64,000 bases of DNA from Terriglobia bacterium (GTDB taxonomy: Bacteria; Acidobacteriota; Terriglobia; Bryobacterales; Bryobacteraceae). Shown piece by piece: positions 21,925 through 52,151 of this stretch. The notes beneath the pieces were generated by a model, which saw only the letters and a program-made list of their open reading frames with translations, did no database searches and was not told where the DNA came from. Location of the stretch: assembly GCA_020073445.1 (NCBI GenBank), contig JAIQFE010000011.1, positions 1-64,000 on the forward strand, in the 5' to 3' direction. Within the stretch, counting starts at the first letter, position 1; each line of letters opens with the position of its first letter. A program made the translations under genes and the position numbers.

Positions 21925-23982
21925 TTGATTCGCTGGTTGCGAGGGATCGTATGGATATGCGCTGCCGCTGCTTTTGCGCAGGACCAGCGCCTCCCGCGCC
22001 AGACTCCCTCCCAGACCGCGGCGGTTCAGGGAATCCTGCGGGATCCATCGGGGCTCGGACTCGGCGGCGCTGCCGTCACACTAAGGAATCTGGGAAACGA
22101 GCAGACCTTCTCCACGATGACGTTGGGCGACGGCGTGTTCCGATTCCTGAACTTGACTCCGGGCCGCTACACGCTGCAAGCTACGCTGGATGGATTTCAG
22201 CGAATCGATCGAACCTTTACCGTACTCAGTGGGGTCGACACGTTCGCGCTGGAATTAATCATGACTCCCGTTCCAGCGGCTCCGCATCCCGTTCCGCCGG
22301 AGGCTCCACCGCAGCCGCCATACCGAACGCTTCCGCAACCGCCTCCAGAAGGGCTGCCGGAAGTCCTTCCTCCTCAAATCATCCCTCCGCGCGGCCGCGT
22401 GTTCACGCCTCTGCCGAACCGCTGGAAGTTCGACTGGCCAGACTACAAGCGTTACGGGCCGATAGACGAAAAAGCCGAAGTGCCTTATGTGAAAGGACAC
22501 TGGTACGATCCGTTCAATCGCAACAAGCTGAAAGGCGACTACCCGATTCTCGGGCAGAGCACGTTCTTGAATATTAGCCTGGTGAGCGATACCGCGGTCA
22601 CGGGCCGCAAGTTGCCGGTCCCGAGCGGTGTGGGCTCCGACGATCCCGACAGTTCCGACTTTTTCGGTCGCATGGGCCAGTTCGCTCTCAGCCAGAATTT
22701 CTCGTTCTCGGCGACTCTGTTCCACGGCGACACGGCGTACCGTCCGGTGGATTGGCAGATCCGGTTCACGCCGGAAGTGAACGTCAACTACCTCAAGGTC
22801 CGGGAGAACGGGATCGTGAGTCCCGATGTACGGGCGGGAACCACGCGCCTGGATGCACACCTCGGGCTCCAGGAAGCGTTCGTGGAGGCGAAGATCGCGG
22901 ATCTGAGCTCATCGTTCGATTTCGTCTCCGCTCGCGCGGGTATCCAAACCTTCAACAGTGATTTCCGCGGGTTTGTATTTTTCGATCAAGAACCGGGGCT
23001 GCGCCTGTTCGGTACGCTCGATTCCAACCGCTATCAGTTCAACGCGGCGTACTTTTCCATGCTCGAAAAGGACACCAACAGCGGGCTGAACAGCATGGCG
23101 TACCGCAACCAGCAGGTGCTGGTGGGGAACTTGTACCGGCAGGATTTCCTGAAGCCCGGATACAACATCCAGGCGAGCTTTCATTACGACAAAGACGACG
23201 CGGCGCTGCAGTACGACACCAACGGCTTCCTGGTGCGGCCTGCGGCGGTCGGCTTGGCCAGACCGCACAAAGTGCGGTCGTACTATTACGGGCTGACTGG
23301 AGCCGGGCACATCGGCCGGCTGAACCTGACGCACGCGTTTTACCAGGTGCTGGGGCACGATTCGCTGAATCCGATTGCCGGTAGGCGTACGGATATCAAC
23401 GCGCAGATGGCCGCGGCCGAGCTTTCCTGGGACCGCGACTGGATCCGTTTCCGCGCCTCGATATTCTGGTCGTCGGGCGACGACAATCCGCGGGACGGGA
23501 CGGCTCGCGGGTTCGATGCCATCCTCGACAATTCGAATTTCGCGGGCGGTTTCTTCAGCTTCTGGAATCGGGAGGGCATCCGGTTGACGGGTTCCGGGGT
23601 AAGCTTGGTTTCGCCCGGGAGCCTGATCCCATCCCTGCGCTCGAGCAAAGCCGAAGGGCAGGCGAATTTCGTGAATCCCGGAATCTTCATTTACAATGCC
23701 GGGGCCGATGTGGAGATCACGCCCAAGCTTCGCGGCGTCCTGAACCTGAACGTGATCCGGTTCCAGGACACCGAACCGCTGGAGCTGATTCTGTTGCAGG
23801 CGCCCATCCACCACGGCGTAGGTGTCGATTCCGGCTTGGGCGTGACATATCGTCCTCCGCTAACAGAGAACATGGTGATTACGGGCGCATTCAACGCATT
23901 TTCCCCGGCGCAGGGATTCCGCGATATCTTTACTGACAAGACTTTATTTTCCGCGGCTGCTAATGTCCGTTTCCGTTTCTAA
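21925..23982 (+). CDS. Outer-membrane barrel protein with carboxypeptidase-regulatory domain
   Basis: A 685-residue protein: signal peptide ([12 protein letters not shown]), carboxypeptidase-regulatory-like beta-sandwich at about 30-110 ([37 protein letters not shown]), Pro-rich linker at about 113-160, then some 500 residues of alternating strand pattern typical of a large beta-barrel, ending ANVRFRF with a C-terminal Phe. No TonB plug signature is visible, so it looks more like a porin than a receptor. The next gene, a decaheme cytochrome, starts inside its last codons (20-nt overlap). This coupling is reminiscent of porin-cytochrome conduits that wire the periplasm to the surface, although there is no evident homology to MtrB or OmbB. 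TTG start. Confidence 0.75.
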
Positions 23983-26900
23983 AAGTATTTCGATCGCGGC
24001 TGTCGCCGGCGGAGTGACTCTATTCGCTGCCCTGGCGCTGCTGCCGGCACAATCTCCCGGCGAGACGGAGCGAAACAGCGCAGGGTGCATCTCTTGTCAC
24101 GGATTGACCGAGGCTCCCAGCATGCACACCACGGGAACCGTGCAGCTAGGCTGCATCGATTGCCACGGCGGCAAGGGCGATGTGACGCGTCCGGCGGGAT
24201 CGGATATGCGCGCCTATGAGCGTGCCAAGCATGAGGCGCATCCGAAGTCCAGGAATTCCGCATATGCCGATTCGTCGGCGAATCCGGTCCGCCCGTACAC
24301 GGACTGGCTGAAAGAGGATAAGGAATATATCCGCTTCATCAATCCCGGCGATCTGCGGGTGGTGGATGAAACCTGCGGGAATTGCCACGCCCGCGAGGCT
24401 CGCGCCGTTCAGACCAGCATGATGACTCACGGCGGCATGCTGTGGCAGGCGGCTCTCTACAACAACGGTGGTTATCCGTACAAGAACGCTCGCTTCGGCG
24501 AAAGTTATTCGCCCGATGGGCTGCCGCAGCGGGTCACGATGCCTGAGGCGCCGAGCAACGAGCTGACCAGGACCAAAGGGATCCTGCCTTACCTGGATCC
24601 CCTGAATCGCTGGGAAGTGTCGCAGCCGGGAAACATCCTCCGCGTCTTCGAGCGAGGTGGCGAGGCGCGTGCCGAGGCCGGCAATCCGAATGGCGGGTCC
24701 CGGCCGGGGCTGCCCGATGACAAGCTAAGCGACCGCGGCCTAGGCACGTTGTTGCGCACGGATCCGGTGTTTCTGGGCTTGCAGAAAACGCGTCTGCTGG
24801 ATCCGCTGCTGTCGTTGCCCGGAACCAACGATCATCCCGGCGATTATCGCCACAGCGGCTGCACGGCGTGCCACGTGATCTACGCGAACGATCGGAACCC
24901 GGCTCATTCCGGGCCGTATGCCGCGTACGGTAATCAAGGACGCAGCGCGCAGATGGATCCGACGATTCCGAAGAACGAACCGGGCCACCCCATCAAGCAT
25001 GAGTTAACTCGCGCGATTCCAACCAGTCAATGTATCGTGTGCCACATTCATCCCGGCACGAACATGGTCGCGTCGTATCTCGGCTATATCTGGTGGGATT
25101 CGGAGACGGACGGCGCGAAGATGTATCCGGCCAAGCAGCACGATCCGACGGATTCGGAGCGGCTGGAATCCTGGATGAAGAATCCGCAGAACGCGGCGGC
25201 GCGCGGTTTGTGGGGCGATCTGGATTTTCTGGAAAAGACCGGTACTCCGGAATTCAACGCGCAGCTCCAGAACACGCAGTTCGCCGATTTCCACGGTCAC
25301 GGCTGGGTGTTTCGTGCAGTGTACAAACGCGACCGGAAAGGGAATCTGCTCGACGCTGAGGACCGCGTCGTTCCTCCAGACGATAAGAACAAGTTCCAGG
25401 ACGCCGTGCACCTCAAGGACATCCATCTTGAAAAAGGGATGCACTGCACGGACTGCCACTTCGAGCGCGATAGCCACGGCAACGGGAATTTGTATGGCGA
25501 AACTCGCAACGCGGTGGAGATCGATTGCGTGGATTGCCACGGGACGGTCAAGTCCAAGGCGAATCTGCGGACTTCCGCGGCTGCGGCACCAACCGGAGGG
25601 ACAGATCTTTCGCTGTTGCGAACAGCGTCGGGACAGCGGCGATTCTATCAACAGGACGGCAAGATCTATCAGCGATCCAATTTAGATCCGGCCAAGTCTT
25701 GGGAAGTGGTGCAGGTGGTCGATAGCATCACTCCTGGGAATCCGCACTACAGTGAGGCGTCGCGCCTGGCCAAGACTCTGCTGAAGGACGGCAACACTTG
25801 GGGATCGGCTCCCGGCGACGAGAAGCAACTCGCGCACGGGAACGATCGGATGACCTGCTATGCGTGCCACTCGTCCTGGACCACGAGCTGTTTCGGCTGC
25901 CATCTTCCGATGCGGGCGAACGCGAAATCGGCGGCCTTGCACAACGAAGGGACGCAAACACGCAACTACACCTCGTACAATTTCGAGGTCCTGCGCGATG
26001 ACATTTACATGTTGGGCGTGGACGGCACCGTTACAGGCAATCGCATCGCGCCGACGCGTTCCACCTGCGCGGTGGTGGTCAGCTCTCAGAACGCCAATCG
26101 CGACTGGACCTACTACCAGCAGCAAACGATTTCCGCGGAAGGTTTCAGCGGGTTCGGTTTCAGTTCCTACTATCCGCACACAGTGCGCGCCAAGGAGACC
26201 AAGACCTGCACCAGCTGCCATATCTCGCGCGATGGCGACAATAACGCCTGGATGGCGCAGCTTCTGATGCAAGGAACGAATCTGGTGAACATGATGGGGC
26301 GTTACGCCTACGTCGCCGAAGGCTCCAAAGGCTTTGACGCGGTGACCGTGGCCGAGCACGACGATCCCCCCGCGGTTTTCGGCAGCGATCTGCAGAAGAT
26401 CGCGTACCCGGCGGATTTTGCCAAGGTCGAAAAACACGGCCGCGAGATTGAAGAAGCGGACCATCATGCGGGTAACGTGCTCGACCTGCAGTTGCGTGGA
26501 GAATATCTGTACGCCGCGCTGGGCAAGGGCGGCTTCCGCATTTACGACGTCGCCAACATCGACAACAAGAACTTTTCCGAGAAGATGACCACCGCGCCCG
26601 TTTCGCCGGTGGGCCAGGGGTTCTACTTGAAGACGAAGTACGCGACCGCAGTGGCTTCGCCTTCGACGCTGGCCGTGGATCCGCTTCGCGCGCACATTCC
26701 AGAAAATGAAGAACAGCCCGCAGCGTTGATGTACGGATTCCTCTACGTGGCGGATCGCGAAGAGGGCCTGATCGTGGTGGGCGATCCGGACCTGAAGAGC
26801 CGCAGTCCGGGTGTCCTGACGTTGCTCGACGGCAATCCGCGTAACAATTTCCTGAAGCGCGCGGCGACCTTTAATCCGGGCGGCGTGCTGACGGGCGCCC

Positions 26901-27640
26901 GGCGGATTACGATTGCGGGGACGTTTGCCTACATCCTGACGGATCGAGGGCTTGTCGTCGTAGATATTGCGAATCCGGGGCAGCCGAAGGTGACGGCGCA
27001 GATCGGCGCACCGGATTTGGTCGATCCGCGAGGCGTCGCCGTGCAGTTTCGATACGCGTTCGTTGTGGATCGCGAGGGGCTGAAGGTGCTCGACGTGACG
27101 TCGCTGGCGAATCCGCGGATTGTGCGAGGAGCGAAGCTCGCGTTAAGTGACGCGCGCAATCTCTACATCGCGCGAACGTATGCCTATGTGGCCGGTGGCA
27201 GCCAAGGCTTGGTGATCGTGGACGTGGAGAGGCCTGAGAAACCCGTCATCGACCAGGTGTTCAACGCGGGTGGGGCGATTCACGACACCAACGATGTAAA
27301 GCTCGGCATGACCGCGGCGAGCGCGTTCGCTTATCTGGCGGATGGCTCTGGAGGCATGCGCATAATTCAGCTCTTCGCGCCGAGCGACAATCCCAATTAC
27401 CTCGGGTTCAGCCCGCGGCCCACGCCGAAGTTGATTGCAACGTATCGCACCCGCGGGCCGGCGTTGGCGATTTCGAAAGGCGTCGATCGCGATCGAGCGG
27501 TGGATGAAAGCGGCAATCAAGTGGCGGTGTTCAATCGCAGAGGGTCTCGGCCACTGAACAAGCAGGAAGCCGAGCGGCTCTTCTTGCGCAACGGCCAGGT
27601 TTATACGGTGACGAACGCGCCGCCGACTCCACCCCGTTAA
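23963..27640 (+). CDS. Decaheme c-type cytochrome with C-terminal LVIVD beta-propeller
   Basis: A 1225-residue exported protein. A signal peptide ([20 protein letters not shown]) lacks a lipobox. Ten CxxCH haem motifs begin at Cys 42, 64, 138, 300, 357, 495, 522, 632, 643 and 749, with many additional His as distal ligands. Residues about 790-1170 hold at least six LVIVD-type repeats, for example [34 protein letters not shown] and [17 protein letters not shown], which form a beta-propeller. Haem module and propeller suggest a surface or periplasmic electron-transfer protein with a binding face. It is translationally coupled to the barrel gene upstream. Its TAA overlaps that of the convergent periplasmic decaheme gene at TTAA (27637-27640). 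The electron acceptor or donor is unknown. Confidence 0.85.
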
Positions 27641-28785
27641 CGAACGAAGTCCAAGATCGTATGCACGCTCGAGGCCGGCTTCGCTTTCGACCAGTCGTGA
27701 TAGTCGTGGCACTCCGAGCAACGCGTATCTGCTGCTGTACGTCCGCCGCTGTGGCATTTCTGGCAGGTCGCGATGCCGGGCAGCAGCACGTCGGCAGTGT
27801 AGTTACTGGTTTTGGCTTGAGCGTGACACTCGGTACAGGTCACTAGCTGGTGTGCATTGTGATCGAACTTGGCGTGGGTCATCCATCGGACCAGGATCGC
27901 CGATTTCAGAATGTCCGGACGAGCCTCCGGAGCCGGGTACGTCAGCACGTGGCATTCCTTACAGGTTTTCTGCCACAGGAGGCGCTCGGCTTCCTCCACA
28001 CTCTGCGCGAGCATTCCTTGATTGCGAACTACAAAATCGTGGACGGTTTTGGTGTCCTGATGCGGCGCAGGCTGGGCGAAGCGGCTATCAAACACCAGTG
28101 GATGGCAGCTGGCGCAGTGCTGCGCATAGGTGACCGGGGCCATCGGCGCATTGGGTGAGTGCGAAACCGGCTGGTGGCAATCCACACATTGAAGCTGCCG
28201 CACGGTCCCGTTGGGACCCTTGAGATCGGGCTTCATGTGCACCTGGTGGCTGAGCTTGATCGTTCCAGGATCGGCTGCGTGCCCCGGCCGCACTGCGGCG
28301 AACTCCGGATGTCCGTTGTTAAATGACGATATGCCGGCGGCGAATTGGGTTTTCCCGTCGGCGGTTTTGAGGCTGCGGTGGCACTGGGTGCACGATGCCT
28401 GGCTGGTATCGGCCAATCGGAAAGCCCCCTGATGTTCGATGTGGCAGGACGTGCAAGCCGGCGTGAAGGTTTGCTTGGCTTGATGGATCGGCGCATTGTG
28501 GCAGGACTGGCATGCGGTCTCGGTCACTTTGGTTCCGAAACCGCCCGAGGGCACGTGGCAGGACGAGCAATTGCTTGTCAGGATCAAGTGCCCGTGAGCC
28601 AGAGGGCCTGCGTTGAACGCGCTTTGCTTACCAGTAAGGGCTCCCCAGCCTAGCCAAGCGACCCCTATGCTCACAGCGGCAATGCTTAGTGTGCGCTTCC
28701 AGCGGGGAATGGGATACGTCCGCTTGAAGTAATTCAAGTCGATGCGCTGAGCGAGCTTTTTGGTAGTTCTGGTTCGTCCCGCCAT
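27637..28785 (-). CDS. Membrane-anchored decaheme c-type cytochrome
   Basis: A 382-residue cytochrome. The N-terminus is cytoplasmic and basic, then one uncleaved membrane helix ([19 protein letters not shown], about 32-50), then a periplasmic domain with ten CxxCH motifs starting at Cys 73, 92, 111, 132, 200, 224, 275, 317, 341 and 356. The tight spacing and the extra His (HQVHMKP, FDHNAHQ) resemble class III/c3-type cytochromes with bis-His haems. It is the last gene of a four-gene operon, 3 nt after the haem-b-like membrane gene. This points to a role as periplasmic acceptor of electrons leaving the membrane, perhaps relaying them to the second decaheme protein encoded tail-to-tail with it. 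Confidence 0.88.
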
Positions 28786-28788
28786 GCA

Positions 28789-29586
28789 TCAGTACCTCAG
28801 CGCCATGACGGCATGGATCCCGCCGAGGACCAACAATGCGATCGAGAGCGGGACGTGCACCAGCAGCCACGCATGCAGCCAGTGATACATGCGCCGCTGG
28901 CGGCTAAGCTGGCGCTCCTCTTCGCAGATATTCTCCAGATCCTCCAAAGCTGGATGTAACGCTATTGGAATGTTCCGGCGCAGCGATTCGAAGACCGGCG
29001 ACTCCATAGTCTCGGGAGCTTCGAGAAATGGGCGTATGGAACTCGCGTAGGTTTCGCGAAATCGAACTTTGTCATCGTGCTCGGCTTCGACTGCGAGGGT
29101 GCCCACCAGCTGTTCCGCTTCCTCGCGAAGCTGCGCGCGCACGTGCGGAATTTCTTCATAAATCGTCTCCATCGGAACGCGCGTGGTGATCATTCGCGGA
29201 AGATAGTGTTGGAGAATCGCTCCCAGGATGCCGCTCGCGACGACAATGAGCAGAAGCACCATCAGCACGGCTGTAAGCGCACCGCGATAAGCAAAGCCTG
29301 AATGGAATAGGATCAGCGGCAACGTGAGCACCCCCAGCCACAGATGCCCGCGCATCCACGTCGACGCGCGACCGAGTCGCCATACTGGCACTTTCTTGCG
29401 CACGCCGAGCAGTCCCTCGAACAGCATCACCGCATAGCCGGCGATTCCGAACGCCAGGCCGATCACAGTGCCGCCGCGCGGCCCGCCAGGTGTTCGCAGG
29501 GCGTACGCCACGTAGATGATCGACGTCGCCAGGAACGCTACGATGGTCCCTGCCAGCCACGGCCGATGTGTGCGGTCAATGCGCAT
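28789..29586 (-). CDS. Haem-b-type integral membrane protein of the redox operon
   Basis: A 265-residue membrane protein with about five hydrophobic helices: LAGTIVAFLATSIIYVAYAL, VIGLAFGIAGYAVMLFEGLL, HLWLGVLTLPLILFHSGF, ALTAVLMVLLLIVVASGILG and, after a 110-residue hydrophilic loop, WLHAWLLVHVPLSIALLVLGG. Several His sit in or at the ends of helices (H-L-W-L, L-F-H-S, H-W-L-H, V-H-V-P, GGIHAVMAL), as in diheme cytochromes b that exchange electrons with quinol. I assign haem b from this pattern, not from a named family. It is flanked within 3-4 nt by the iron-sulfur gene upstream and the decaheme gene downstream, so it is the likely membrane link between them. Confidence 0.75.
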   Translation of the reverse strand: MRIDRTHRPWLAGTIVAFLATSIIYVAYALRTPGGPRGGTVIGLAFGIAGYAVMLFEGLLGVRKKVPVWRLGRASTWMRGHLWLGVLTLPLILFHSGFAYRGALTAVLMVLLLIVVASGILGAILQHYLPRMITTRVPMETIYEEIPHVRAQLREEAEQLVGTLAVEAEHDDKVRFRETYASSIRPFLEAPETMESPVFESLRRNIPIALHPALEDLENICEEERQLSRQRRMYHWLHAWLLVHVPLSIALLVLGGIHAVMALRY

Positions 29587-29590
29587 CTCG

Positions 29591-31732
29591 TTATCCGGAA
29601 ATTACGTGCTTGAAGAACTGATTCGGGTCCACGCGATGCGCCGCGTCGTGCGGGCAGGCGTACACGCAGCTCGGTTCGGCGTGATCAGTACAGAGATCGC
29701 AGGAAGTTGCCTTCTGCTTGGTCACCACGGCTCGTTTGCCAGGTGCGTCGGGATTCTCGATGTTCACTTCGAACGGATGGAGCGTAATGTTGCCATAGGG
29801 GCAGTTCTTGGCGCACAGTCCGCAACCGATGCACCAGTCTTCGATGATGACTTCGAGCGACTGGCGGCGTCGAATAGAGCCCACCGGACATCCCACCATG
29901 CACAGCGGGTCGCGGCACTGACGGCAGGAGGTCGCCACCAGATAGTTCTCAAACCGCAGGCCTTCGCGGATGAGGCGCGTGACGCCGTCATGTGCATCGG
30001 CGCACGCGCGCACGCACGAATCGCAACGTGTGCACTTTTCGAGATCCAAAACCAGGAGGCTCTGCGCTTCCATGAGCCCCTGGGCCAGAAAACGATCAAG
30101 TGGGATATCGGTCGATTGCTTCAAGCGCTGGCGATTCTGCTCCAGATGCTCTGCGGCGACCTCTTCCAGGCTGCGGCGGATATCTGGGAACGAGTCCATC
30201 ATGCGCTGGAAGTCCTGAGCTTCGATGCGGACCACCTCCACGTGATCGAGCGCCGAACACGTGGCCGTACGGCGTCCGCCGCCCCCTGCGTCCATCCCCA
30301 GCAGGCCGATCTCGCCGAAATAGCCACCGCGACCCAGGTAGTTGAGCACCAACTCACCCTGCGGATGGTCCTCGGCTACCTTCACGAAGCCGATGCGAAT
30401 CAGATAGAAGCTGTCGGCGATGTCGCCCTGGCGGCAGATGATGTCGCCCTTTCCGAATCGTACGAGCTCCACGCGATCGCGCAAAGAATCGATGAACTCG
30501 GGCGTCAGCGAAGCGAACAGCGGGACGTTCTTGAGATGATCTTCGAGCGCGCGTCGTTTGTAATTCTCATCCAGGCGACCTTTGATGTTCTTGTTGCGCT
30601 GCATGATATCGAGCACGTTCCGCAACATTTCGTACATGGTGCAGTCCGTCGCCGCGCGCACCGTAGCCGAGCGCGGATATAGACTCATGCAGGTCATCTC
30701 GCCGAACAGATCGCCGGGGCCAAGCTCGGCGACCGGATTGTCGTACGGCAGATCCACGGAGGCATCAATCGGAATGGTGCGACGGTTGACCTCTCCCTCA
30801 CGTCGATCCTGTTTCCGGCCCAGCAGCTTGCTGCCCAGGCGCTGGAAGAATCCCGAAGCGCCGCCTTCGGTGTGAACGTGCGCGATTGGCGTCGAGAGAA
30901 ATACCTGAGCTGTGCCGTCCAAAATGTAGAACGCCGTGGATCCGTACTCGCCTTCGCGGCAGATGATGTCGCCTGCGCGAAAAGTGCGCTTGACCACGGC
31001 GTTCCGGTTAAGTTCCAGGAACGTCCCCGAAACCTTCTGGAAGTAGGGGAGCTTGAGCAGGTCCTCGACCTCGGCTGGTTCACCGCCGAGCTCTGTCTGC
31101 ACCACGAACTTGTTGGTGAGCGCGCCAGTGGGGCAGGAGACCACGCACTCGCCACAGGAAACGCAGGTCGAGTTGCCCATCGGTTTATTCAGATCGAAGG
31201 CGATTCCCGCGTTGAAACCCTTGCCGCGCCGGCCCAGCACGAAGTTGTTGCGGATCTCGCCGCAGCCGCGAATGCAGCGGTCGCAGAGAATGCAAGCCTC
31301 GTGATCCACGGCGATAGCGAGCGACGAATCGTCCTGCCCGCGCGGCGAGAGGCGCTTTGAGAATCGTGACCCGCTCAGGCCTTCCTGGCGCGCCAGCGTT
31401 TCGAGCTCGCAATCGCCCGACTGGCTCTGGCGAGCGCACGGCGAAGGATGATCGGCCATCAGCAGTTCGAGCAGAGTGCGCCGTACGTTGCGCACCTTGT
31501 CGGAGTTCGTGGCGACGGTCATGCCTTCTTCGGCGGGCCGAATGCAGGACGCACTCAGGACGCGTCCGCCCGCTTCCACAACGCACAGGCGGCAGACACC
31601 CACGGGTGTTTCGTTCTGTTGATGGCACAGAGTGGGAATGGCAATGCCCTGGAGACGCGCTGCGTCGAACACCGTCGTCCCGCTGGGAACGGTGACCGCC
31701 TGCCCGTCGATGGTTAAGTGAAGATCACCCAT
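29591..31732 (-). CDS. NuoG-N/DmsB-like iron-sulfur protein with two cNMP-binding domains
   Basis: A 713-residue cytoplasmic protein with a composite layout. Residues 1-80 are a plant-type [2Fe-2S] domain (Cys 36, 47, 50, 63), and 85-115 a NuoG-type His-Cys3 cluster segment. Residues 145-205 hold two [4Fe-4S] clusters (CILCDRCIRGC, CVSCGECVVSCPTG). Residues about 248-385 and 405-530 are two CRP/PKA-type cyclic-nucleotide-binding domains; the phosphate-binding cassettes read FGEMTCMSLYPRSATVRA and FGEIGLLG...RRTATC, with Gly, Glu and Arg kept. Residues 564-700 are a DmsB-like domain with four Cys clusters. It should carry electrons from the NuoEF protein to the membrane partner, with nucleotide-binding domains placed exactly between the two iron-sulfur halves. 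Confidence 0.88.
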   Translation of the reverse strand: MGDLHLTIDGQAVTVPSGTTVFDAARLQGIAIPTLCHQQNETPVGVCRLCVVEAGGRVLSASCIRPAEEGMTVATNSDKVRNVRRTLLELLMADHPSPCARQSQSGDCELETLARQEGLSGSRFSKRLSPRGQDDSSLAIAVDHEACILCDRCIRGCGEIRNNFVLGRRGKGFNAGIAFDLNKPMGNSTCVSCGECVVSCPTGALTNKFVVQTELGGEPAEVEDLLKLPYFQKVSGTFLELNRNAVVKRTFRAGDIICREGEYGSTAFYILDGTAQVFLSTPIAHVHTEGGASGFFQRLGSKLLGRKQDRREGEVNRRTIPIDASVDLPYDNPVAELGPGDLFGEMTCMSLYPRSATVRAATDCTMYEMLRNVLDIMQRNKNIKGRLDENYKRRALEDHLKNVPLFASLTPEFIDSLRDRVELVRFGKGDIICRQGDIADSFYLIRIGFVKVAEDHPQGELVLNYLGRGGYFGEIGLLGMDAGGGGRRTATCSALDHVEVVRIEAQDFQRMMDSFPDIRRSLEEVAAEHLEQNRQRLKQSTDIPLDRFLAQGLMEAQSLLVLDLEKCTRCDSCVRACADAHDGVTRLIREGLRFENYLVATSCRQCRDPLCMVGCPVGSIRRRQSLEVIIEDWCIGCGLCAKNCPYGNITLHPFEVNIENPDAPGKRAVVTKQKATSCDLCTDHAEPSCVYACPHDAAHRVDPNQFFKHVISG

Positions 31733-31741
31733 ATACAGATC

Positions 31742-33448
31742 TCACGCGACCTCTCGCATGGGGCACACACCCTCCGGACAGCGATGCTCCAGAATGTGGG
31801 CTTCTACTTCCGGCCTGAAGTGCTTGATCACCGAAGTGATCGGCGAATGCGCAAACTGTCCCAGGCCACAAATGGACGCGAGCTTCATCGCTTCCGACAA
31901 CTCGTCCAGCAAGACCATGTCGGCGGCGGTCCCCTTGCCCTGGGTCCAGCCGATGAGGATGTCGGTCATCTTCTGCGAGCCGTTGCGGCAAGGGACACAC
32001 TTCCCGCAGGATTCGTTGCGAAAGAAACGAACCGCGTTCAGCGCCATATCGAGCATGCAGCGACCCTCGGCGCAAACTACGATGGCAGCCGATCCCATCA
32101 TCGAGCCCGCAGCCGCCAACGACTTGAAATCGATGTGGACGTCCACCATCGACGCAGGCAGATAGCCTGACGACGGACCAGACGGAGCGAACGCCTTCAG
32201 ACGTTTACCACCATCGATGCCGCCGCCGTGCTGAAAGATCACCTCTTCCATCGGCGTTCCCATCGGGATCAGATAGACGCCCGGTTTCTGGACATCGCCG
32301 CTCACGCCGACGAATTTCAGTCCGGCGCATCCGTTCACGCCCTGCGACTTGTACCAGTCGATTCCATTCACCAGGATTTGCGGCACATTGGCAAAAGTCT
32401 CCACATTGTTGAGAGCCGTGGGCTTGCCCCACAGGCCTTCGTAAACCGGAAACGGCGGCTTATTGCGCGGCTCGGCGCGCTTGCCTTCGATGGCTTCCAT
32501 CAGCGCGGTCTCTTCGCCGCAGATGTATCCGCCGGGGCTGACGAAAAGTTCAAGATCGAACGGAAGATCCGTACCGCACACGCGCGGTCCGAGCAGGCCA
32601 TTTTCATAACAATGGCGAATCTCTTCCGCGATGAGATGTTCCTGCGGTTCGTATTCGTGGCGGATGTAGAGAATCCCTTTGCGAGCCCCGGTCACCAGCC
32701 CGGCGAGAATCATGCCTTCGATCGCCAGGTGCGTCAGATGTCCCAGGATGAAGCGGTCTTTGATCGTGCCGGGCTCGCTTTCATCGGCATTGCAGATGAC
32801 GTACTTTTCGGTCGCGGGCGTCTTGCGCACGGCTTCCCATTTGACGCCGGTGGGGAATCCCGCACCGCCCAAGCCGGATAACCCGGCAGTTTTGAGCTGC
32901 GCGATCACGCCGTCAAAGTCGCGTGTCTCAGCAACCGTCCGCAGCGCTCCGTACCGTTCCGTGTTCTGGTAGGGATCCGCTGCCAATCCTGTCTTCCGCG
33001 GTTCTGGCGAAACCGCCGGAGGCTGACTGCCGCCCAGCGCGCTGATTGCGATCGCCTCGGCTTGCGGAGCGCTTACATGCCGAAACGAGTGATCGTTGAT
33101 GCGTACCGCGGGAGCGCCGTCGCATTGACCCAGGCAGGAGACATCGGTGATGGCGATATCACGATCGCTCATGGAACCGAACCGGCGCGACAGTTCTCCC
33201 CGCAGTTCGTCAGCGCCGCGCAGATGACACGACATATCCGCGCACACCTGAACCGTCACACGGGGCGGAGGGGAAAGATGGAAGTGAGGAAAGAAATCGG
33301 CGACGCCGTGAATGTGCGGCAACGAAATCTGCGAACGGCGCGAGAGAGCCTCCAGTTGATCGGCAGGCAGATAGCCGTACTGGCGCTGAATCTCCCTCAA
33401 GTCGTCGAAGAGCAAACCGTAATTATATCGGCAGAACCCCCCGATCAT
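31742..33448 (-). CDS. NuoE-NuoF fusion, NADH-oxidising diaphorase subunit
   Basis: A 568-residue fusion. Residues 1-120 are a NuoE-type thioredoxin-like [2Fe-2S] domain with Cys 69, 74, 105 and 109 (VQVCADMSC, SCLGQC). From about 150 it is NuoF: Gly-rich NADH loop SGLGGAGFPTGVKW, FMN region NADESEPGTIKDR, GGYICGEETALMEAIEG, and the [4Fe-4S] ligands in ESCGKCVPCRNG plus a later Cys. It would oxidise NAD(P)H via FMN, or run in reverse. The layout resembles HoxF/HydB-type diaphorases rather than complex I. ATG 33448 is chosen because the NuoE domain starts there; the frame runs on to 33676 but overlaps the divergent cytochrome. It is first of a four-gene operon with 3-9 nt spacings. Confidence 0.9.
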   Translation of the reverse strand: MIGGFCRYNYGLLFDDLREIQRQYGYLPADQLEALSRRSQISLPHIHGVADFFPHFHLSPPPRVTVQVCADMSCHLRGADELRGELSRRFGSMSDRDIAITDVSCLGQCDGAPAVRINDHSFRHVSAPQAEAIAISALGGSQPPAVSPEPRKTGLAADPYQNTERYGALRTVAETRDFDGVIAQLKTAGLSGLGGAGFPTGVKWEAVRKTPATEKYVICNADESEPGTIKDRFILGHLTHLAIEGMILAGLVTGARKGILYIRHEYEPQEHLIAEEIRHCYENGLLGPRVCGTDLPFDLELFVSPGGYICGEETALMEAIEGKRAEPRNKPPFPVYEGLWGKPTALNNVETFANVPQILVNGIDWYKSQGVNGCAGLKFVGVSGDVQKPGVYLIPMGTPMEEVIFQHGGGIDGGKRLKAFAPSGPSSGYLPASMVDVHIDFKSLAAAGSMMGSAAIVVCAEGRCMLDMALNAVRFFRNESCGKCVPCRNGSQKMTDILIGWTQGKGTAADMVLLDELSEAMKLASICGLGQFAHSPITSVIKHFRPEVEAHILEHRCPEGVCPMREVA

Positions 33449-33487: not shown

Positions 33488-34804
33488 ATGCGTGTTGCCG
33501 TTTGTTTGGTGCTCGGGTCCGGTGTGCTCTTTGCGCAGGCCGGGGAAACACCCAAATACACCGGCCCTGGATCGTGCGCTTCGCCCAGCTGCCATGGCGG
33601 GGTGCAGGTTCGAACCACCACTTCCGTGCAACAAAACGAGTACAGCACCTGGGTGGTCAAGGACAAACATGCGCACGCATTCGCGGTGCTGACCAATCCC
33701 GTGGCCACCCGAATGGCCAAGATTCTGGGGCCAGATAAGCTAGGATCGGCCAAGGCGGACACCGCTCCGAAATGCCTCGCTTGTCACGCCCTCAGCGTGC
33801 CTGAGGCGGACCGGGCCAGAACGTTCGATTCCACCGACGGCGTGAGTTGCGAATCCTGCCACGGACCGGCTTCGAACTGGCTGGGTCCGCATACCACCAA
33901 AGGCTGGACGCACGAACGTTCCGTCGCGGCGGGGATGCGCGATCTGCGGGATCCCGTGCATCGCGCCGAGAATTGCCTGACGTGCCACTTGGGCACTGCG
34001 GACAAAGCGGTGGATCACGAGATGATCGCCGCAGGACATCCGGATTTGTACTTCGAGCTCGCGTCGTTCACCGCAGCGATGCCGCGACACTGGATAGAGC
34101 ACGCTGCCGACGATCGCACGAAAGAGGATCCGTTCGCGGATGTTCGCATGCTCGCGGCCGGGCAGGCCGTGCAACTGCGCGAACAGTTGCAACGCGTCGC
34201 ACGCAACGCACAAGGCAACTCTTGGCCCGAATTTGCCGACCTGGACTGCTTTGCCTGCCACCACAGTCTGACTAACGCCGAGAATAGCTGGCGGCAGGAG
34301 CTGGGCTACGCCGGGCGCCGCGCGGGCAATCCGCCCTGGAATGTGTCGCGATACGCCGTGCTTCGCCAGATCGTGAACGAGATGGATCGCGAGAACGGAC
34401 GCCGGTTGGAGACGGAGGTCGACAAGCTCTACGCGATCATGAGCTCGGGAAACCCGGATCGCAATCAGGCCGCGGCACAGGCGCGGACCACGGCCGATGT
34501 CGCTGGCCGCATCGCGCAACAAATGTCGACTGCAGCGTTCGATCAGGCGCGCACTCAGCGTTTGCTCAAGGCCATTGCGGGCGACGGCGATTATATTTCG
34601 CGTCAGGGCGAGCGTGCCGCGGAGCAGGTGACGATGGCCCTTCAGTCCTTGTATCTGGCCTATTCCGCCCAGGCGCATCCGAACAACGATACGCAGATCC
34701 GCGCCGCGATCAAAGCTCTGTTTCAGCAAGTCGAAAATCCGTCAGCTTACAACGCTGCCAAGTTCGCAGAGCAAATGCGCGCACTCAAGCAGGTATTGCC
34801 GTGA
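33488..34804 (+). CDS. c554-like multihaem cytochrome
   Basis: A 438-residue exported cytochrome: signal peptide (RVAVCLVLGSGVLFAQAG), one C-x4-CH motif (C30-ASPS-CH) and four CxxCH motifs at Cys 96, 121, 163 and 254. The arrangement and the surrounding DKHAHAF, CESCHGPASNWL and AAGHPDLYFEL segments are those of the cytochrome c554/hydroxylamine-oxidoreductase-related family. The C-terminal 180 residues are helical and lack haem motifs. It is probably a periplasmic electron carrier, and may accept electrons from or donate to the decaheme proteins. ATG 33488 follows GAGAGGAAAC; a longer open frame from 33062 is antisense to NuoEF and rejected. It is divergent from the NuoEF operon (39 bp apart) and overlaps the next gene by 4 nt. 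Confidence 0.85.
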   Translation: MRVAVCLVLGSGVLFAQAGETPKYTGPGSCASPSCHGGVQVRTTTSVQQNEYSTWVVKDKHAHAFAVLTNPVATRMAKILGPDKLGSAKADTAPKCLACHALSVPEADRARTFDSTDGVSCESCHGPASNWLGPHTTKGWTHERSVAAGMRDLRDPVHRAENCLTCHLGTADKAVDHEMIAAGHPDLYFELASFTAAMPRHWIEHAADDRTKEDPFADVRMLAAGQAVQLREQLQRVARNAQGNSWPEFADLDCFACHHSLTNAENSWRQELGYAGRRAGNPPWNVSRYAVLRQIVNEMDRENGRRLETEVDKLYAIMSSGNPDRNQAAAQARTTADVAGRIAQQMSTAAFDQARTQRLLKAIAGDGDYISRQGERAAEQVTMALQSLYLAYSAQAHPNNDTQIRAAIKALFQQVENPSAYNAAKFAEQMRALKQVLP

Positions 34805-36258
34805 AGCATACATTGTTCGTGGCCGCGCTCCTGGCCGCTCGGGCCTTTGGCCAGGAGCTAACTGCCGATGAGGTTCGCTCGGTTGCGCAGCATGCGGCAT
34901 CCTCGATCGGCTCGCGGGGAGTGGCGATTGCGGTCACGAATCGCCAGGGCGATATATTGGCACTGTTCCGAACTCCGGGTGCGCCCGATACCTCTATCGG
35001 TAATTTCGGTGCGAGCGTCGACACTAACGAATTAGCAGTGGCCCTGGCGCGGACGGCATCTTTCTTCAGCAACAATCAGGCGCCGCTCTCCAGCCGCACG
35101 GTCCGCTTCATCAGTGGCGTGCACTTTCCGCCCGGAATTAGCTTCACGCCGAACGCGGCGCTGTACGGGATCGAAAACACGAATCGCGGATGCGGATTCA
35201 ATACGACATTCGTTGTGGCCAAGGAGGTTCCGCCGGCGCGATCGATCGATGGGACGCAGCCTGGCCTCGGAATCCAGACCGGCAAAGCGGATCTGACCGA
35301 CAGCAATCCCGACGCGGTGAATCCCGGCGGCGTTCCGCTTTTCAGGAACGGTGTGGTGGTCGGCGGAGTCGGTGTTGCTGGTTCGTCGGCGGCGGTGGAT
35401 GAGTATGCGGCCTTCAGCGGAGCCATCGGTGCAGGATTCGTTCCGACCCCCGCGGCTCCCGGTGTGATCTTCATCGATGGAATCGAGCTGCCCTTCGTGA
35501 ATCAGACAACCGCGCCCGACGGCGTCGCATCGGGCGATGTTCGGGGCGACTTCCTGATAGGGCCGCTCGACAGTCCTGGGCCAGCGCCAGACGGTGACCT
35601 GGTCGCGCCGCAAGACGGATCCAAGTTGTCGGCGACGGATGTCCGGCAGCTCCTGGACCGGGCGATCGCCACGGCCAACCAGACCCGAGCGATCATTCGC
35701 CTTCCGATCGGCTCGCGTGCGCGCATGGTGATCGCGGTGACGGATATCGATGGTACCGTGCTCGGTTTGCACCGCATGCCGGATGCGACCTTCTTCAGTA
35801 TCGACGTGGCCGTGGCCAAGGCGCGCAACATGGTTTATTTCAGCGGCGCCGGCGGTTCCGTCGATCTGCCTGGAATTCCCGACCGTACGGCCGTCACGAA
35901 TCGGACGATTGGTTTCAGTGCGCAGCCGTTCTTTCCGCCCGGAATCGACGGTTCCGGTCAGGGGCCGTTCTTCGACTTATACGTGCAGGACACGAAGAAT
36001 CCGTGCACACAGGGATCGCAGCCGGTCAACTCGAATCAGAACGGAATCGTGTTCTTCCCTGGCGCGTTGCCACTGTATCGAAACGGCGTTTTGGTGGGCG
36101 GACTCGGCGTGAGCGGCGACGGCGTGGAGCAGGACGATTACGTGACGTCGGGCGCCGCTGTGGGTTTTGAAGCACCTGCCAATGCTCGCGCCGACCGCGT
36201 GTTCATCGACGGTGTACGGATGCCGTACTTGAAATTCCCACGCAATCCGACCAAATAA
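34801..36258 (+). CDS. Tandem GlcG/HbpS (DUF336) haem-binding-type protein, exported
   Basis: A 485-residue protein with a signal peptide (LFVAALLAARAFGQ) and two GlcG/HbpS-like halves at about 20-240 and 275-475. Each half begins with a helix (LTADEVRSVAQHAASSI; LSATDVRQLLDRAIATA) followed by VAIAVTNRQGDILALFR or MVIAVTDIDGTVLGLHR, and each ends with a Gly-rich PLFRNGVVVGGVGVAGS or PLYRNGVLVGGLGVSGD. HbpS relatives bind haem and corrin cofactors. A tandem, Cys-poor exported form next to a cytochrome could bind or deliver haem or protect from peroxide, which is inference. GTG start overlaps the cytochrome stop (GTGA), so they are co-translated. Confidence 0.8.
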   Translation: MKHTLFVAALLAARAFGQELTADEVRSVAQHAASSIGSRGVAIAVTNRQGDILALFRTPGAPDTSIGNFGASVDTNELAVALARTASFFSNNQAPLSSRTVRFISGVHFPPGISFTPNAALYGIENTNRGCGFNTTFVVAKEVPPARSIDGTQPGLGIQTGKADLTDSNPDAVNPGGVPLFRNGVVVGGVGVAGSSAAVDEYAAFSGAIGAGFVPTPAAPGVIFIDGIELPFVNQTTAPDGVASGDVRGDFLIGPLDSPGPAPDGDLVAPQDGSKLSATDVRQLLDRAIATANQTRAIIRLPIGSRARMVIAVTDIDGTVLGLHRMPDATFFSIDVAVAKARNMVYFSGAGGSVDLPGIPDRTAVTNRTIGFSAQPFFPPGIDGSGQGPFFDLYVQDTKNPCTQGSQPVNSNQNGIVFFPGALPLYRNGVLVGGLGVSGDGVEQDDYVTSGAAVGFEAPANARADRVFIDGVRMPYLKFPRNPTK

Positions 36259-37101
36259 TCACAGCAGGACCACCAATCCCTCGCGTGCGGCGCACGCTTC
36301 GTCGAACTCTGCCGCAGCCAGCCGCTCCGATTCCGCCACCCGGGCGTCGGTATGCGCTGGATCGAAATGAAACAGGAACAGCTTCCCGACGTCTGCGTCC
36401 CGTGCGACGCTGGTCGCCTCGCGCCAGGTACTGTGCCCCCATCCTCGATGCGAGGCGTATTCTTCGTCGTTGTACTGCGCGTCGTAAATCAGCACATCGG
36501 CTCCCGCGGCATGATCCCGCAAGATCTGGTCAAGGTGTCCGTCGCCGTGCTCCAGATCCGTCGCATAGACGATGCTCTTGCCATCGGCCTCAATGCGATA
36601 TCCGTAAGCGCCCTGTGGATGATTTAGCGGGAAGGATTCCACGGAGACATCGCCGATCTTCACGCGCTCGGATTTCAATTGGGCGAAGCTCGTTCGCGCA
36701 CCGGCATCCGCCAGATTCAGCGGAAAGTTCGGAATGTTCATTTGAGCCTCCAGGACGCGCCGGGTCTGCTGGTCCGAAGTCCAGGAGTGCACGTTGAGTC
36801 GCGTGGACGGCGAGAAGAGCGGCTGGAAATACGGAATGCCTTGAATATGATCCCAGTGGAAATGCGTAAGAAACAGGTTCAGCGAGAGCTCACGCCCGGC
36901 GAACTCGGTAGCCAGATGCTGTCCGAGTGCGCGAATCCCCGACCCTCCATCGAATATCAGGACCTGATTGGATGCCGTGCGGATCTCCACGCACGGAGTG
37001 TTGCCGCCGTACACCAGCGTGTCCTTGCCGGGCGCGGGAGTGGACCCGCGAACGCCCCAGAATCGCATCTGCAATTTGTGCCCGGTCTCCATAGGACTCA
37101 C
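36259..37101 (-). CDS. MBL-fold metallohydrolase
   Basis: A 280-residue metallo-beta-lactamase-fold protein without signal peptide. The start MRFWGVRGSTPAPG and YGGNTPCVEIRT are typical of a widespread PhnP/cyclic-phosphodiesterase-like subgroup. The metal site is seen in THFHWDHIQG, the second His in FPLNHPQGAYGY, the Asp in YATDLEHG and the last His in FHFDPAHTD. It overlaps the cyclase gene by 4 nt (ATGA, 37098-37101), so the two are translated together. Relatives hydrolyse phosphodiesters, including cyclic ones, so breakdown of the nucleotide made by the cyclase is a reasonable hypothesis, not a demonstrated activity. Its stop abuts the convergent tandem HbpS gene with zero spacing. Confidence 0.85.
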   Translation of the reverse strand: MSPMETGHKLQMRFWGVRGSTPAPGKDTLVYGGNTPCVEIRTASNQVLIFDGGSGIRALGQHLATEFAGRELSLNLFLTHFHWDHIQGIPYFQPLFSPSTRLNVHSWTSDQQTRRVLEAQMNIPNFPLNLADAGARTSFAQLKSERVKIGDVSVESFPLNHPQGAYGYRIEADGKSIVYATDLEHGDGHLDQILRDHAAGADVLIYDAQYNDEEYASHRGWGHSTWREATSVARDADVGKLFLFHFDPAHTDARVAESERLAAAEFDEACAAREGLVVLL

Positions 37102-38726
37102 GAAGCGGGACTGGCTGCCGGAGTACTTTGTACGATACGTTGCCAGTCGACCGAGTAAACCCGCACCTGCGCGTCGCGCCCTTTGACGCTGACCTGCCCG
37201 AGGTCGTGAAACAGATCGCTGCCGCCCGCGGCCTTATACATCGCTTCCGAAACCAGAATCTGACCCGGTTCCGCACGGCTCACCAGCCTTGCCGCGATGT
37301 TCACGGTATCGCCAATGGCGGTGTATTGCATCCGTTCCGCCGATCCGATGTTGCCGACCACCGCCGGGCCGTGGTGCAGCCCAATGCCGATCCGGATGGG
37401 CGCCAGCCCGCGCTGGACCCGCTCCTCGCCCAGCCGCGCGACTTGCTGCTGCATCCGAACGGCGGCCACCAGCGCGTTTCTGGGACTGCGTTCGGAAGGA
37501 ATCGGAGCGCCGAACAATGCCATCACGCAATCGCCGATGAATTTGTCGAGCGTGCCCTGCGACTGAAAGATCGCGGCCGTCATCACTCCAAAAAAGTCGT
37601 TCAGCAGGTCCACTACTTCGCGTGCGTCCATCTGCTCGGAAAGGGGCGTGAAGCCGCGGATGTCCGCGAACAGGACGGTCACGGGCTGCAATACGCCGCC
37701 TAGTTCCACTGACCCGCCCTTCGAACAAATCAAATCGACCACTTGTGGCGGCAGGTATCGGCTGAGGTTCGCGCGTTCCACTTCCTGGCGCGAAATCTCT
37801 TCCCGGGCCAGGCTATTCGCCAGCGCCATGCCCGCCTGCGCCGCGATGATGGTGAAGGTCTGGAAATCTTCTTCCGAGAATGCGTCGGAGCGCATCACGT
37901 TATCCGCGTAGAGCACTCCCAGCATGCGCCCCTGCGACGTCACCGGGGAGCAAAACGCAGCTTGGATCCCGGCGCGGACGATGCTTTTCGAAAGGTTATA
38001 CTCCGACGATTTGATATCGCGGATCAGCAGCGGACGGTTGTCCTTCCGCACTTGATTCAGAATGGTGCTGCTGAGGACCAGATTCTGCGGATCGAACATC
38101 GGGGCCGCAAGCTGATCGAGCCCGGCGCGCGTCTCCAGAGGCATCTGATGAAAGCAGCGTTCTTTCTCGTCCCAGGGCCATAGCGTGGCGCGCTGCACGC
38201 CTTCGATCCTGAAGAGCAACTGAATGGATTCTTTCACCACCTCCGAAGGCGTATGCGTCCCGGCCAGCTTTAAGCCGACCTCATTCAACAGTTCGAGGGC
38301 CTTGAGGCGCGGCGCTTCAGGAGCCTTTACTTCCGATTTGAATGCTTCGGGCTGTTGCGGCTTCTGGAGTGCAGTGAGGTCAACTGCGCCAGATTGGATC
38401 TTCCACGGCAACCCGCCCGCCTTCTCTTCCCGAAACACGATCTCATGCGGGCCGATGGTGATCACATCGCCGCCGTGCAGAGCGACGGGTGCCGTGACTC
38501 GTTGCTTATTCACGAAGGTGCCGTTCACGGCGCCTCCATCGCGAAGCGTGGCGCCCCGTTCGGGATCCCATTCGATCACGGCATGGCGCCGGGAGACACG
38601 CAGTTCGCTGTCGGTGAGAACTACGTCATTCTCTTGGGACCGTCCCAGCGACAGGGTCGGCCGCTCGATCGGCACCACTCGCTTCTTGCCGTCGGGTTGT
38701 TTAATGACTAAGGAACAGGCGCCCAT
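37098..38726 (-). CDS. FHA-GAF-class III adenylate/guanylate cyclase
   Basis: A 542-residue cytoplasmic signalling enzyme. An FHA domain covers 1-100 (PTLSLGRSQENDVVL, VSRRHAVI, NGTFVNKQRV), a GAF domain about 145-310 (LFRIEGVQRATLWPW to GVLYADN), a short linker helix follows (SLAREEISRQEVERANLSRYLP), and a class III cyclase domain covers about 340-530. The cyclase has the first metal Asp in VLFADIRGFTPLSE, the second in KFIGDCVMALFG, and the transition-state Asn/Arg block AIGDTVNIAARLVSRA. It should make cAMP or cGMP in response to a small-molecule or redox signal at the GAF domain and phosphopeptide binding at the FHA. It lies 6 kb from a protein with two cNMP-binding domains. Confidence 0.88.
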   Translation of the reverse strand: MGACSLVIKQPDGKKRVVPIERPTLSLGRSQENDVVLTDSELRVSRRHAVIEWDPERGATLRDGGAVNGTFVNKQRVTAPVALHGGDVITIGPHEIVFREEKAGGLPWKIQSGAVDLTALQKPQQPEAFKSEVKAPEAPRLKALELLNEVGLKLAGTHTPSEVVKESIQLLFRIEGVQRATLWPWDEKERCFHQMPLETRAGLDQLAAPMFDPQNLVLSSTILNQVRKDNRPLLIRDIKSSEYNLSKSIVRAGIQAAFCSPVTSQGRMLGVLYADNVMRSDAFSEEDFQTFTIIAAQAGMALANSLAREEISRQEVERANLSRYLPPQVVDLICSKGGSVELGGVLQPVTVLFADIRGFTPLSEQMDAREVVDLLNDFFGVMTAAIFQSQGTLDKFIGDCVMALFGAPIPSERSPRNALVAAVRMQQQVARLGEERVQRGLAPIRIGIGLHHGPAVVGNIGSAERMQYTAIGDTVNIAARLVSRAEPGQILVSEAMYKAAGGSDLFHDLGQVSVKGRDAQVRVYSVDWQRIVQSTPAASPAS

Positions 38727-50679: not shown

Positions 50680-50727
50680 CGTCGATGTTCTCCTGAGCAT
50701 GAGCAATGAAAATGTTAAACGAGACGA

Positions 50728-52095: not shown

Positions 52096-52151
52096 TATTT
52101 CAGCTCTCCTTCTTAATTCTATGATTTCTCAAGGTCATTGCCTATCGCTGC

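Follow-up and report, generated by a model that had tools for sequence, protein, structure and literature searches.

What could be the function of an operon that encodes an NADH-oxidising module, an iron-sulfur protein, a membrane cytochrome and a decahaem cytochrome side by side, and what role might be played by the cyclic nucleotide-binding domains within its iron-sulfur protein? This question is raised by a stretch of 64,000 nucleotides from contig JAIQFE010000011.1 of a Terriglobia bacterium (Acidobacteriota; assembly GCA_020073445.1), referred to below as the window. Four genes on its minus strand (27637-33448) encode a NuoE-NuoF fusion (NuoEF), an iron-sulfur protein (FeS), a membrane cytochrome b (CytB) and an anchored decahaem cytochrome c, with intergenic gaps of 9, 4 and 3 nt. 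This order and spacing had been given by an original prediction made from the sequence, and the open reading frame calls confirmed both. We propose that the four genes probably encode a membrane-bound, cyclic-nucleotide-responsive NADH:multihaem-cytochrome c oxidoreductase, which would carry electrons across the inner membrane independently of quinone. A bolder extension, which we put forward tentatively, is that the system might be the first cyclic-nucleotide-gated electron wire, in which cyclic AMP (cAMP) or cyclic GMP (cGMP) from a co-located cyclase switches the quinone-bypassing export of electrons from NADH, and whose core repeatedly captured NAD(P)H modules across Acidobacteriota.

Conservation of the four-gene operon

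The 44 related loci compared here were found with short CytB peptide patterns, a search that requires CytB and is biased to close relatives. FeS proteins having an N-terminal half that resembles the N-terminal part of NuoG (the NuoG-N half) are called N-type below. After exclusion of two loci cut at contig ends (L061 and L072), 37 loci with and five without this half were compared. NuoEF was detected by tblastn in 37/37 loci with the NuoG-N half, whereas none of the five loci without it (L055, L065, L067, L068 and L075) had NuoEF, and the gene order is therefore not accidental. NuoEF adjoins FeS in 35 gene-called loci as well as in L035, where it escaped the simple gene caller and was seen by tblastn, and in L074, where it is shortened by the contig. 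CytB lies downstream of FeS in all 37 N-type loci (the contig of L077 ends inside CytB), and the decahaem cytochrome is present in the 36/36 having enough sequence, being split across two frames in L040 and bearing nine CXXCH motifs in L074. The FeS gene of L075 is positioned after the decahaem gene.

The ratio of nonsynonymous to synonymous substitution rates (dN/dS) was 0.037-0.068 across the four genes in comparison with L034 (dS 0.8-1.4) and 0.12-0.21 in comparison with L036, a more distant locus for which dS approaches saturation. These low ratios, together with the order kept in 37/37 N-type loci, indicate that the four genes are adjacent by more than chance. Between loci, the distances measured for one of the four proteins correlate with those for the others (r between 0.76 and 0.91; 34 loci including the window), a result for which common descent alone could suffice.

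Homologous genes scattered in relatives had been named in the original prediction as evidence that would speak against it. The genes are contiguous and ordered in the N-type loci, and it is the operon as a whole that is patchily distributed in Acidobacteriota: 58 of 396 genomes of the phylum contain a match to a CytB profile (E 1e-8), a near full-length FeS was found in five of the 396 (G000, G187, G348, G023 and G359), and at the thresholds used both a FeS with cyclic nucleotide-binding domains and CytB are missing from G289, a genome of the same genus. Beyond Acidobacteriota, related loci were seen in L074 (labelled Methylomirabilota) and L075 (labelled Gemmataceae). The closest CytB relatives in the species collection are those of L034 (labelled Terriglobia, 91%) and L035 (Bryobacterales, 88%), by which a bryobacterial acidobacterium is the most likely source of the window. 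L005, L045 and L107 come from a single genome. The contig of L045 (CALQCC020000010.1), metagenome-assembled and titled Bordetella parapertussis, bears this acidobacterial operon, and its label is probably wrong. Immediately upstream of a complete four-gene operon, an 838-aa protein (L070:3403-5919) was observed that joins a TIR domain to NuoEF and to a NuoG-N half in one chain.

The NADH input module

NuoEF contains the Pfam domains 2Fe-2S_thioredx, Complex1_51K, SLBB and NADH_4Fe-4S, which identify it as an NADH/flavin mononucleotide (FMN) input module; its two Fe-S sites are of the N1a type (2Fe-2S) and the N3 type (4Fe-4S). Three motifs of this module are listed in Table 1. The natural donor to NuoEF modules is NADH. 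On the NuoF side, the closest solved relatives are HydB and NiFe-hydrogenase subunit B, followed lower down by formate dehydrogenase beta. A longer alternative frame starting at GTG extends NuoEF to 33676.

Cyclic nucleotide-binding domains between two iron-sulfur modules

The FeS protein matches the Pfam families Fer2_4, NADH-G_4Fe-4S_3, several Fer4 and cNMP_binding (PF00027, E 1.6e-37). Its NuoG-N and DmsB-like ends had been recognised in the original prediction, and these identities, like those of NuoEF, are borne out by Pfam and by NCBIfam, whose models (HydA/HoxU-like for the N-terminal half, HydN and DMSO_dmsB for the C-terminal end) match FeS below the family cut-offs. The central tandem of cyclic nucleotide-binding domains, placed between the NuoG-N half and the 16-Cys DmsB-like ferredoxin, had been overlooked. 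The same holds for three features described below, namely the cyclase linked to the operon, the pattern in CytB that points to two haems, and the exchange of input modules.

The cysteine sets for one 2Fe-2S and two 4Fe-4S clusters in the NuoG-N half are kept in 31/31 alignment rows having this half. The N5-type site of the same half retains His95, Cys99 and Cys108, and residue 102 is not Cys; it is Gln in 28, Glu in two and His in one of the 31 rows. The equivalent residue is Glu in the molybdopterin relative of L097 and Cys in a complex I-like NuoG encoded elsewhere in the window's genome, on contig C59. Pockets and C-terminal cysteines were counted in 68 FeS proteins longer than 480 aa, excluding the short copies L005-L008 and L023-L025 and dropping L045. 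Of the 16 C-terminal cysteines, each is present in 39-41 of the 41 N-type proteins and in 26-27 of the 27 other FeS proteins, and a 32-row alignment has a few gaps or single changes at these positions. The best solved matches of the tandem are the tandem domains of the protein kinase A (PKA) regulatory subunit and protein kinase G (PKG). Both domains of the N-type proteins retain the pocket Glu (41/41) and Arg (40/41), a pair that marks the nucleotide pocket of such domains.

A membrane cytochrome with two histidine pairs and an anchored decahaem cytochrome

CytB bears His81/His95 and His244/His258, two H-x13-H pairs whose histidines are kept in 65, 65, 65 and 64 of 65 alignment rows (one genome is included twice, as L005 and L045). 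This is the pattern of a two-haem-b protein; the haem-b-like character claimed in the original prediction is in keeping with the four invariant histidines. An AlphaFold2 model of CytB (predicted local distance difference test score, pLDDT, 87.7; predicted template modelling score 0.79) has five long membrane helices, with one His pair on helix 74-96 and the other on helix 208-264, helices 4 and 5 being separated by a helical insert; a plain hydropathy scan gives four membrane segments only. In the model, the histidines are placed such that one haem b could sit close to each side of the membrane. The window CytB has no Pfam match at 0.01, no NrfD or DmsC Pfam match was obtained for 36 CytB members up to E 1, and a search of the PDB with a CytB profile yielded no credible sequence match. 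The window CytB itself scored below all cut-offs against ferric reductase, NOX, STEAP and b561 profiles, and unrelated profiles such as Bac_rhodopsin also match weakly.

The decahaem cytochrome, with Cytochrome_C7 and Paired_CXXCH matches, has the ten CXXCH motifs and the N-terminal membrane segment expected from the original prediction, the latter being a hydropathy segment at 32-50 barely above the threshold. Among family members of at least 350 aa, ten CXXCH motifs occur in 55/57 and a predicted N-terminal transmembrane segment (TM) in 42/57. A search against solved structures gave one weak match.

Exchangeable input modules and gene fusions

Other flavoproteins accompany the same core in related loci. 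According to Pfam, the Pyr_redox flavoprotein of L093 precedes two cyclic nucleotide-binding domains and a ferredoxin in one fused protein, and the same fusion is suggested for L094 and L095 by shared family, length and order. L085 has a separate gene with Pyr_redox and two FHA domains (Pfam), a gene family (k10) that recurs in five further loci (L086, L087, L090, L091 and L092). In L098-L101, the cyclic nucleotide-binding domains, ferredoxin and CytB form a single protein retaining both H-x13-H pairs (identified by Pfam and BLAST in L098 and by BLAST in L099-L101). The next gene in L098 encodes FHA, TM, seven CXXCH motifs, TM, Fer4 and Pyr_redox in one chain; the haem-flavoprotein chain of L100 resembles it with one predicted TM, and L099 and L101 encode the haem part and the flavoprotein part in different genes. 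These fusions suggest, without reliance on the window alone, that an NAD(P)H-type flavoprotein, the cyclic nucleotide-binding ferredoxin, cytochrome b and exported haems belong to one system. The swaps to Pyr_redox and the fusions on the same core thus support a flow from NAD(P)H to the periplasm.

A single cluster, L098:4277-12585, holds both fusions together with PDEase_II and FHA-GAF-cyclase genes. CytB relatives also occur near proteins with 19-39 CXXCH motifs in L102-L105, with Pyr_redox flavoproteins in L102, L104 and L105; these sets are possibly giant electron-export conduits.

A cyclase gene linked to the operon

Only one class III cyclase (PF00211) was found in the genome, whose assembly is 95.8% complete; it lies at 37098-38726, 3.6 kb from NuoEF. 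Cyclase counts covered 39 of the 44 loci, leaving out L061, L065, L068, L072 and L077. A cyclase was found within 15 kb of CytB in 14 of these 39 genomes, which contain 85 cyclases in total, against 0.55 expected; the genomes are related and not independent, so that the statistical significance is overstated. As a control in the same genomes, a cyclase lies within 15 kb of only 1/67 NuoF loci not beside CytB. Within the NuoEF-type clade the cyclase linkage is strong, but it is not general.

Five arrangements were seen: an FHA-GAF cyclase upstream (the window, with the same family in L034 and L035); a CHASE2 cyclase between c554 and NuoEF (L039); a CHASE2 cyclase after the decahaem gene (L049, with the same family in L057, L063 and L066); a CHASE2 cyclase and a metallo-hydrolase upstream (L109); and an FHA-GAF cyclase with PDEase_II beside the redox genes (L098).

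Neighbouring genes

Genes of the cytochrome c554, LVIVD-repeat cytochrome and HbpS-like families flank the operon in the window (Table 1) and occur in 41, 29 and 31 of 74 clustered loci, respectively, which makes them candidate downstream partners. The LVIVD cytochrome is ExtM-like, far under the cut-off of that family. The metallo-beta-lactamase-fold hydrolase could possibly be a phosphodiesterase, as its position suggests. Farther away, an NQR2/RnfD-like membrane protein, an ApbE flavin transferase and an FMN-binding protein are encoded consecutively at 58104-60581 and might be a second flavin-based redox unit. An ankyrin-repeat protein and DUF1552/DUF1592-family genes, one bearing two CXXCH motifs, are found at 48865-54575.

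Table 1. The four-gene operon, its protein domains and its neighbours in the window
Feature	Position	Strand	Remarks
NuoE-NuoF fusion (NuoEF)	31742..33448	minus	568 aa counted from ATG; motifs GLGGAGFPTGVKW, ESEPGTIKDR, SCGKCVPC
Iron-sulfur protein (FeS)	29591..31732	minus	713 aa; NuoG-N/HoxU-like half, cyclic nucleotide-binding tandem, 16-Cys DmsB/HydN-like ferredoxin
NuoG-N-like half of FeS	31097..31732	minus	FeS residues 1-212
N5-type site of FeS	31406..31432		FeS residues 101-109
Tandem cyclic nucleotide-binding domains of FeS	30098..31057	minus	FeS residues 226-545; PF00027
C-terminal ferredoxin domain of FeS	29603..30070	minus	FeS residues 555-710; 16 Cys, four 4Fe-4S sites
Membrane cytochrome b (CytB)	28789..29586	minus	265 aa; two H-x13-H pairs
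Anchored decahaem cytochrome c	27637..28785	minus	382 aa; 10 CXXCH
LVIVD-repeat cytochrome	23963..27640	plus	convergent; 10 CXXCH; 4-nt overlap with decahaem gene; conserved neighbour
Cytochrome c554-family gene	33488..34804	plus	divergent; four CXXCH; conserved neighbour
HbpS-like protein	34801..36258	plus	conserved neighbour
Metallo-beta-lactamase-fold hydrolase	36259..37101	minus	4-nt overlap with cyclase; no PDEase_II match
FHA-GAF-adenylate/guanylate cyclase	37098..38726	minus	PF00211

Possible mechanism and alternative explanations

In the mechanism that we favour, electrons would pass from NADH to the FMN and Fe-S clusters of NuoEF, to the Fe-S clusters of the NuoG-N half, to the four 4Fe-4S clusters of the DmsB-like end of FeS, and then to the cytosol-side and the periplasm-side haem b of CytB. 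From there, they could run along the ten haems of the anchored cytochrome to the c554 and LVIVD cytochromes and a periplasmic or extracellular acceptor. Judged from the conserved ligands, the Fe-S sets, the two haem b sites and the ten haems c would make a plausible unbroken outward set of carriers. On binding to the tandem, which separates both Fe-S halves, cAMP or cGMP from the linked cyclase would shift the alignment of these halves and open or close the wire; ligand-driven movement of the tandem could change the cluster spacing. The four proteins would presumably assemble into one complex with an outward flow independent of quinone. The NADH-to-periplasm chain claimed in the original prediction agrees with this picture in that the genes of the carriers and their conserved ligands were found and nothing contradicts it, outward being the probable direction.

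Several observations weigh against this mechanism. No cyclase lies within 15 kb of CytB in 25 of the 39 genomes, some of these being on short contigs. Among a further 56 CytB-bearing genomes, four have a cyclase within 15 kb (0.75 expected): G023 and G359, both N-type, G259, and G015 with a weak match (counted by eye from the result tables, with the gaps computed). In the 27 other FeS proteins, the first cyclic nucleotide-binding domain keeps Glu in 27/27 and Arg in 18/27, and the second keeps Glu in 22/27 and Arg in 13/27, this second pocket often being degenerate; by the pocket residues, ligand binding is thus not universal among the FeS relatives. The N5-type site without one Cys suggests that this cluster may be lost or unusual. 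The AlphaFold2 model of FeS is poor (pLDDT 61) and unusable for inter-cluster distances. For CytB, Foldseek gave no match at E 0.001 or better, and VIA-align gave middling Z-scores with unrelated helical bundles on top. In L090, FeS and flavoprotein genes occur with neither CytB nor a decahaem gene called beside them. Loci with a short-form FeS (L078-L082) have no adjacent NAD(P)H module, NuoEF being found in 0/5 of them, with only about 0.5 kb of upstream sequence in L079; NuoF homologues occur elsewhere in their genomes (one in G417, two each in G427 and G433), so that these proteins may take electrons from a different donor or from a partner encoded at a distance.

How far the gate itself should be believed depends on the tandem. 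It is quite possible that the same chain operates with the tandem as a structural spacer, a dimerisation unit or a sensor of another ligand. The degenerate pockets of many other FeS proteins and the missing cyclase within 15 kb in 25/39 and 52/56 genomes would fit such a role, which is opposed by the Glu and Arg kept in the N-type pockets, the PKA/PKG tandems as best solved matches, the cyclase enrichment of 14/39 versus 1/67, and the co-occurrence of cyclase and PDEase_II in L098. CytB could alternatively react with menaquinone, which would make the system an NADH:quinone or quinol:decahaem oxidoreductase similar to FeS/membrane/multihaem complexes of the complex iron-sulfur molybdoenzyme (CISM) type. 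A DmsB-like FeS subunit with a membrane partner is generally the quinone-reactive arrangement, and the FeS/NrfD/multihaem complexes of MBNT15 and Melioribacter were proposed to be quinol:acceptor reductases (PMC9386147). We nevertheless consider a quinone link unlikely, as the CytB members have no NrfD Pfam match, two b-haem sites and the decahaem cytochrome would already complete a transmembrane path, and the core was repeatedly paired with NAD(P)H flavoproteins.

Reverse flow, in which the haems would take up periplasmic electrons to reduce NAD+, draws on the reversibility in principle of the components and on the several exported cytochromes among the neighbours. It seems very improbable, because inward transfer to NAD+ would be uphill and opposed by the membrane potential, as is established in bioenergetics; furthermore, no periplasmic dehydrogenase was recognised among the neighbours, most singletons of which were left unscanned. 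That four unrelated genes are adjacent by chance is scarcely conceivable and was rejected in view of the order conserved in 37/37 loci, the coupled presence of NuoEF and the NuoG-N half, the fusions in relatives, and the purifying selection indicated by dN/dS below 0.07 against L034.

If electron export by a cyclic-nucleotide-responsive oxidoreductase is correct, respiring soil bacteria would have a quinone-free way to move NADH electrons past the inner membrane, and second-messenger allosteric control would be located inside an electron-transfer chain. In Acidobacteriota, a phylum that abounds in soil but is poorly cultured, overflow or extracellular electron transfer would gain a route open to testing, and a switchable bioelectronic wire could be modelled on this natural system.

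Comparison with known systems

No description of the operon was found in the open-access literature searched, which is weak evidence as subscription journals and bioRxiv were mostly outside the scope; the terms "cyclic nucleotide", "NuoE" and "NADH" do not occur in the available part of PMC8100337. The operon shares the NADH module with complex I (NuoEFG), but NuoBCDI and the membrane arm are found neither among the four genes nor among the flanking genes in the window. A complex I remnant was rejected as an explanation in view of the separate NuoE-, NuoF- and NuoG-like gene set on contig C59.

The input module of NuoEF and a NuoG-N/HoxU-like half is common to HydABC hydrogenases, HoxEFU and NAD-dependent formate dehydrogenases, and its best solved matches are HydB and HydA1, below which rank subunits of NiFe-hydrogenase and the alpha and beta subunits of formate dehydrogenase. 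Unlike these enzymes, the operon has no H-cluster, NiFe or Mo subunit, and its NuoG-N half continues into the cyclic nucleotide-binding domains. As regards the electron-bifurcating HydABC/Bfu enzymes, the alignment with HydB stops at residue 563 of the 568 in NuoEF and the last 60 residues of HydB, the C-terminal ferredoxin extension, have no counterpart. A hydrogenase or formate dehydrogenase was rejected because the catalytic domain is absent from the four proteins, and the original prediction was right that the operon lacks a complex I membrane arm, a hydrogenase and a molybdenum subunit. Relatives of the NuoG-N half are fused to molybdopterin subunits elsewhere (L027 and L097). A regular association with such catalytic subunits, which would have spoken against the prediction, was not seen in 78 loci (the window and L034-L110): the molybdopterin query matches only L097, which has no cyclic nucleotide-binding protein, and none of the called genes contained the simple NiFe/FeFe motifs.

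With CISM (DmsABC-like) enzymes and the FeS/NrfD/multihaem reductases described for MBNT15 and Melioribacter (PMC9386147), the operon shares the 16-Cys DmsB-like subunit, a membrane partner and a multihaem cytochrome; it differs by the joined NADH module, the non-NrfD membrane protein with two H-x13-H pairs, and the cyclic nucleotide-binding tandem. The H-x13-H pattern of two putative bis-His sites is shared by CytB with the ferric reductase/NOX/STEAP proteins and prokaryotic b561, here without a flavin domain. The PKA regulatory subunit and PKG share the tandem domains with Glu/Arg pockets, which stand here between Fe-S modules and without a kinase. A multihaem relay leading outward from the inner membrane is common to MtrCAB and Geobacter Cbc-type export, and the anchored multihaem cytochrome encoded beside CytB, with the LVIVD cytochrome as a candidate for an extracellular terminal acceptor, provides this feature. 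MtrCAB and Cbc-type systems take electrons from quinol and have no NADH module or cyclic nucleotide-binding domain. The parts of the operon come from known families, and its composition fails the definitions of complex I, NAD-linked hydrogenase or formate dehydrogenase, and NrfD-based CISM; second-messenger control within such a modular redox complex would possibly be a new control principle.

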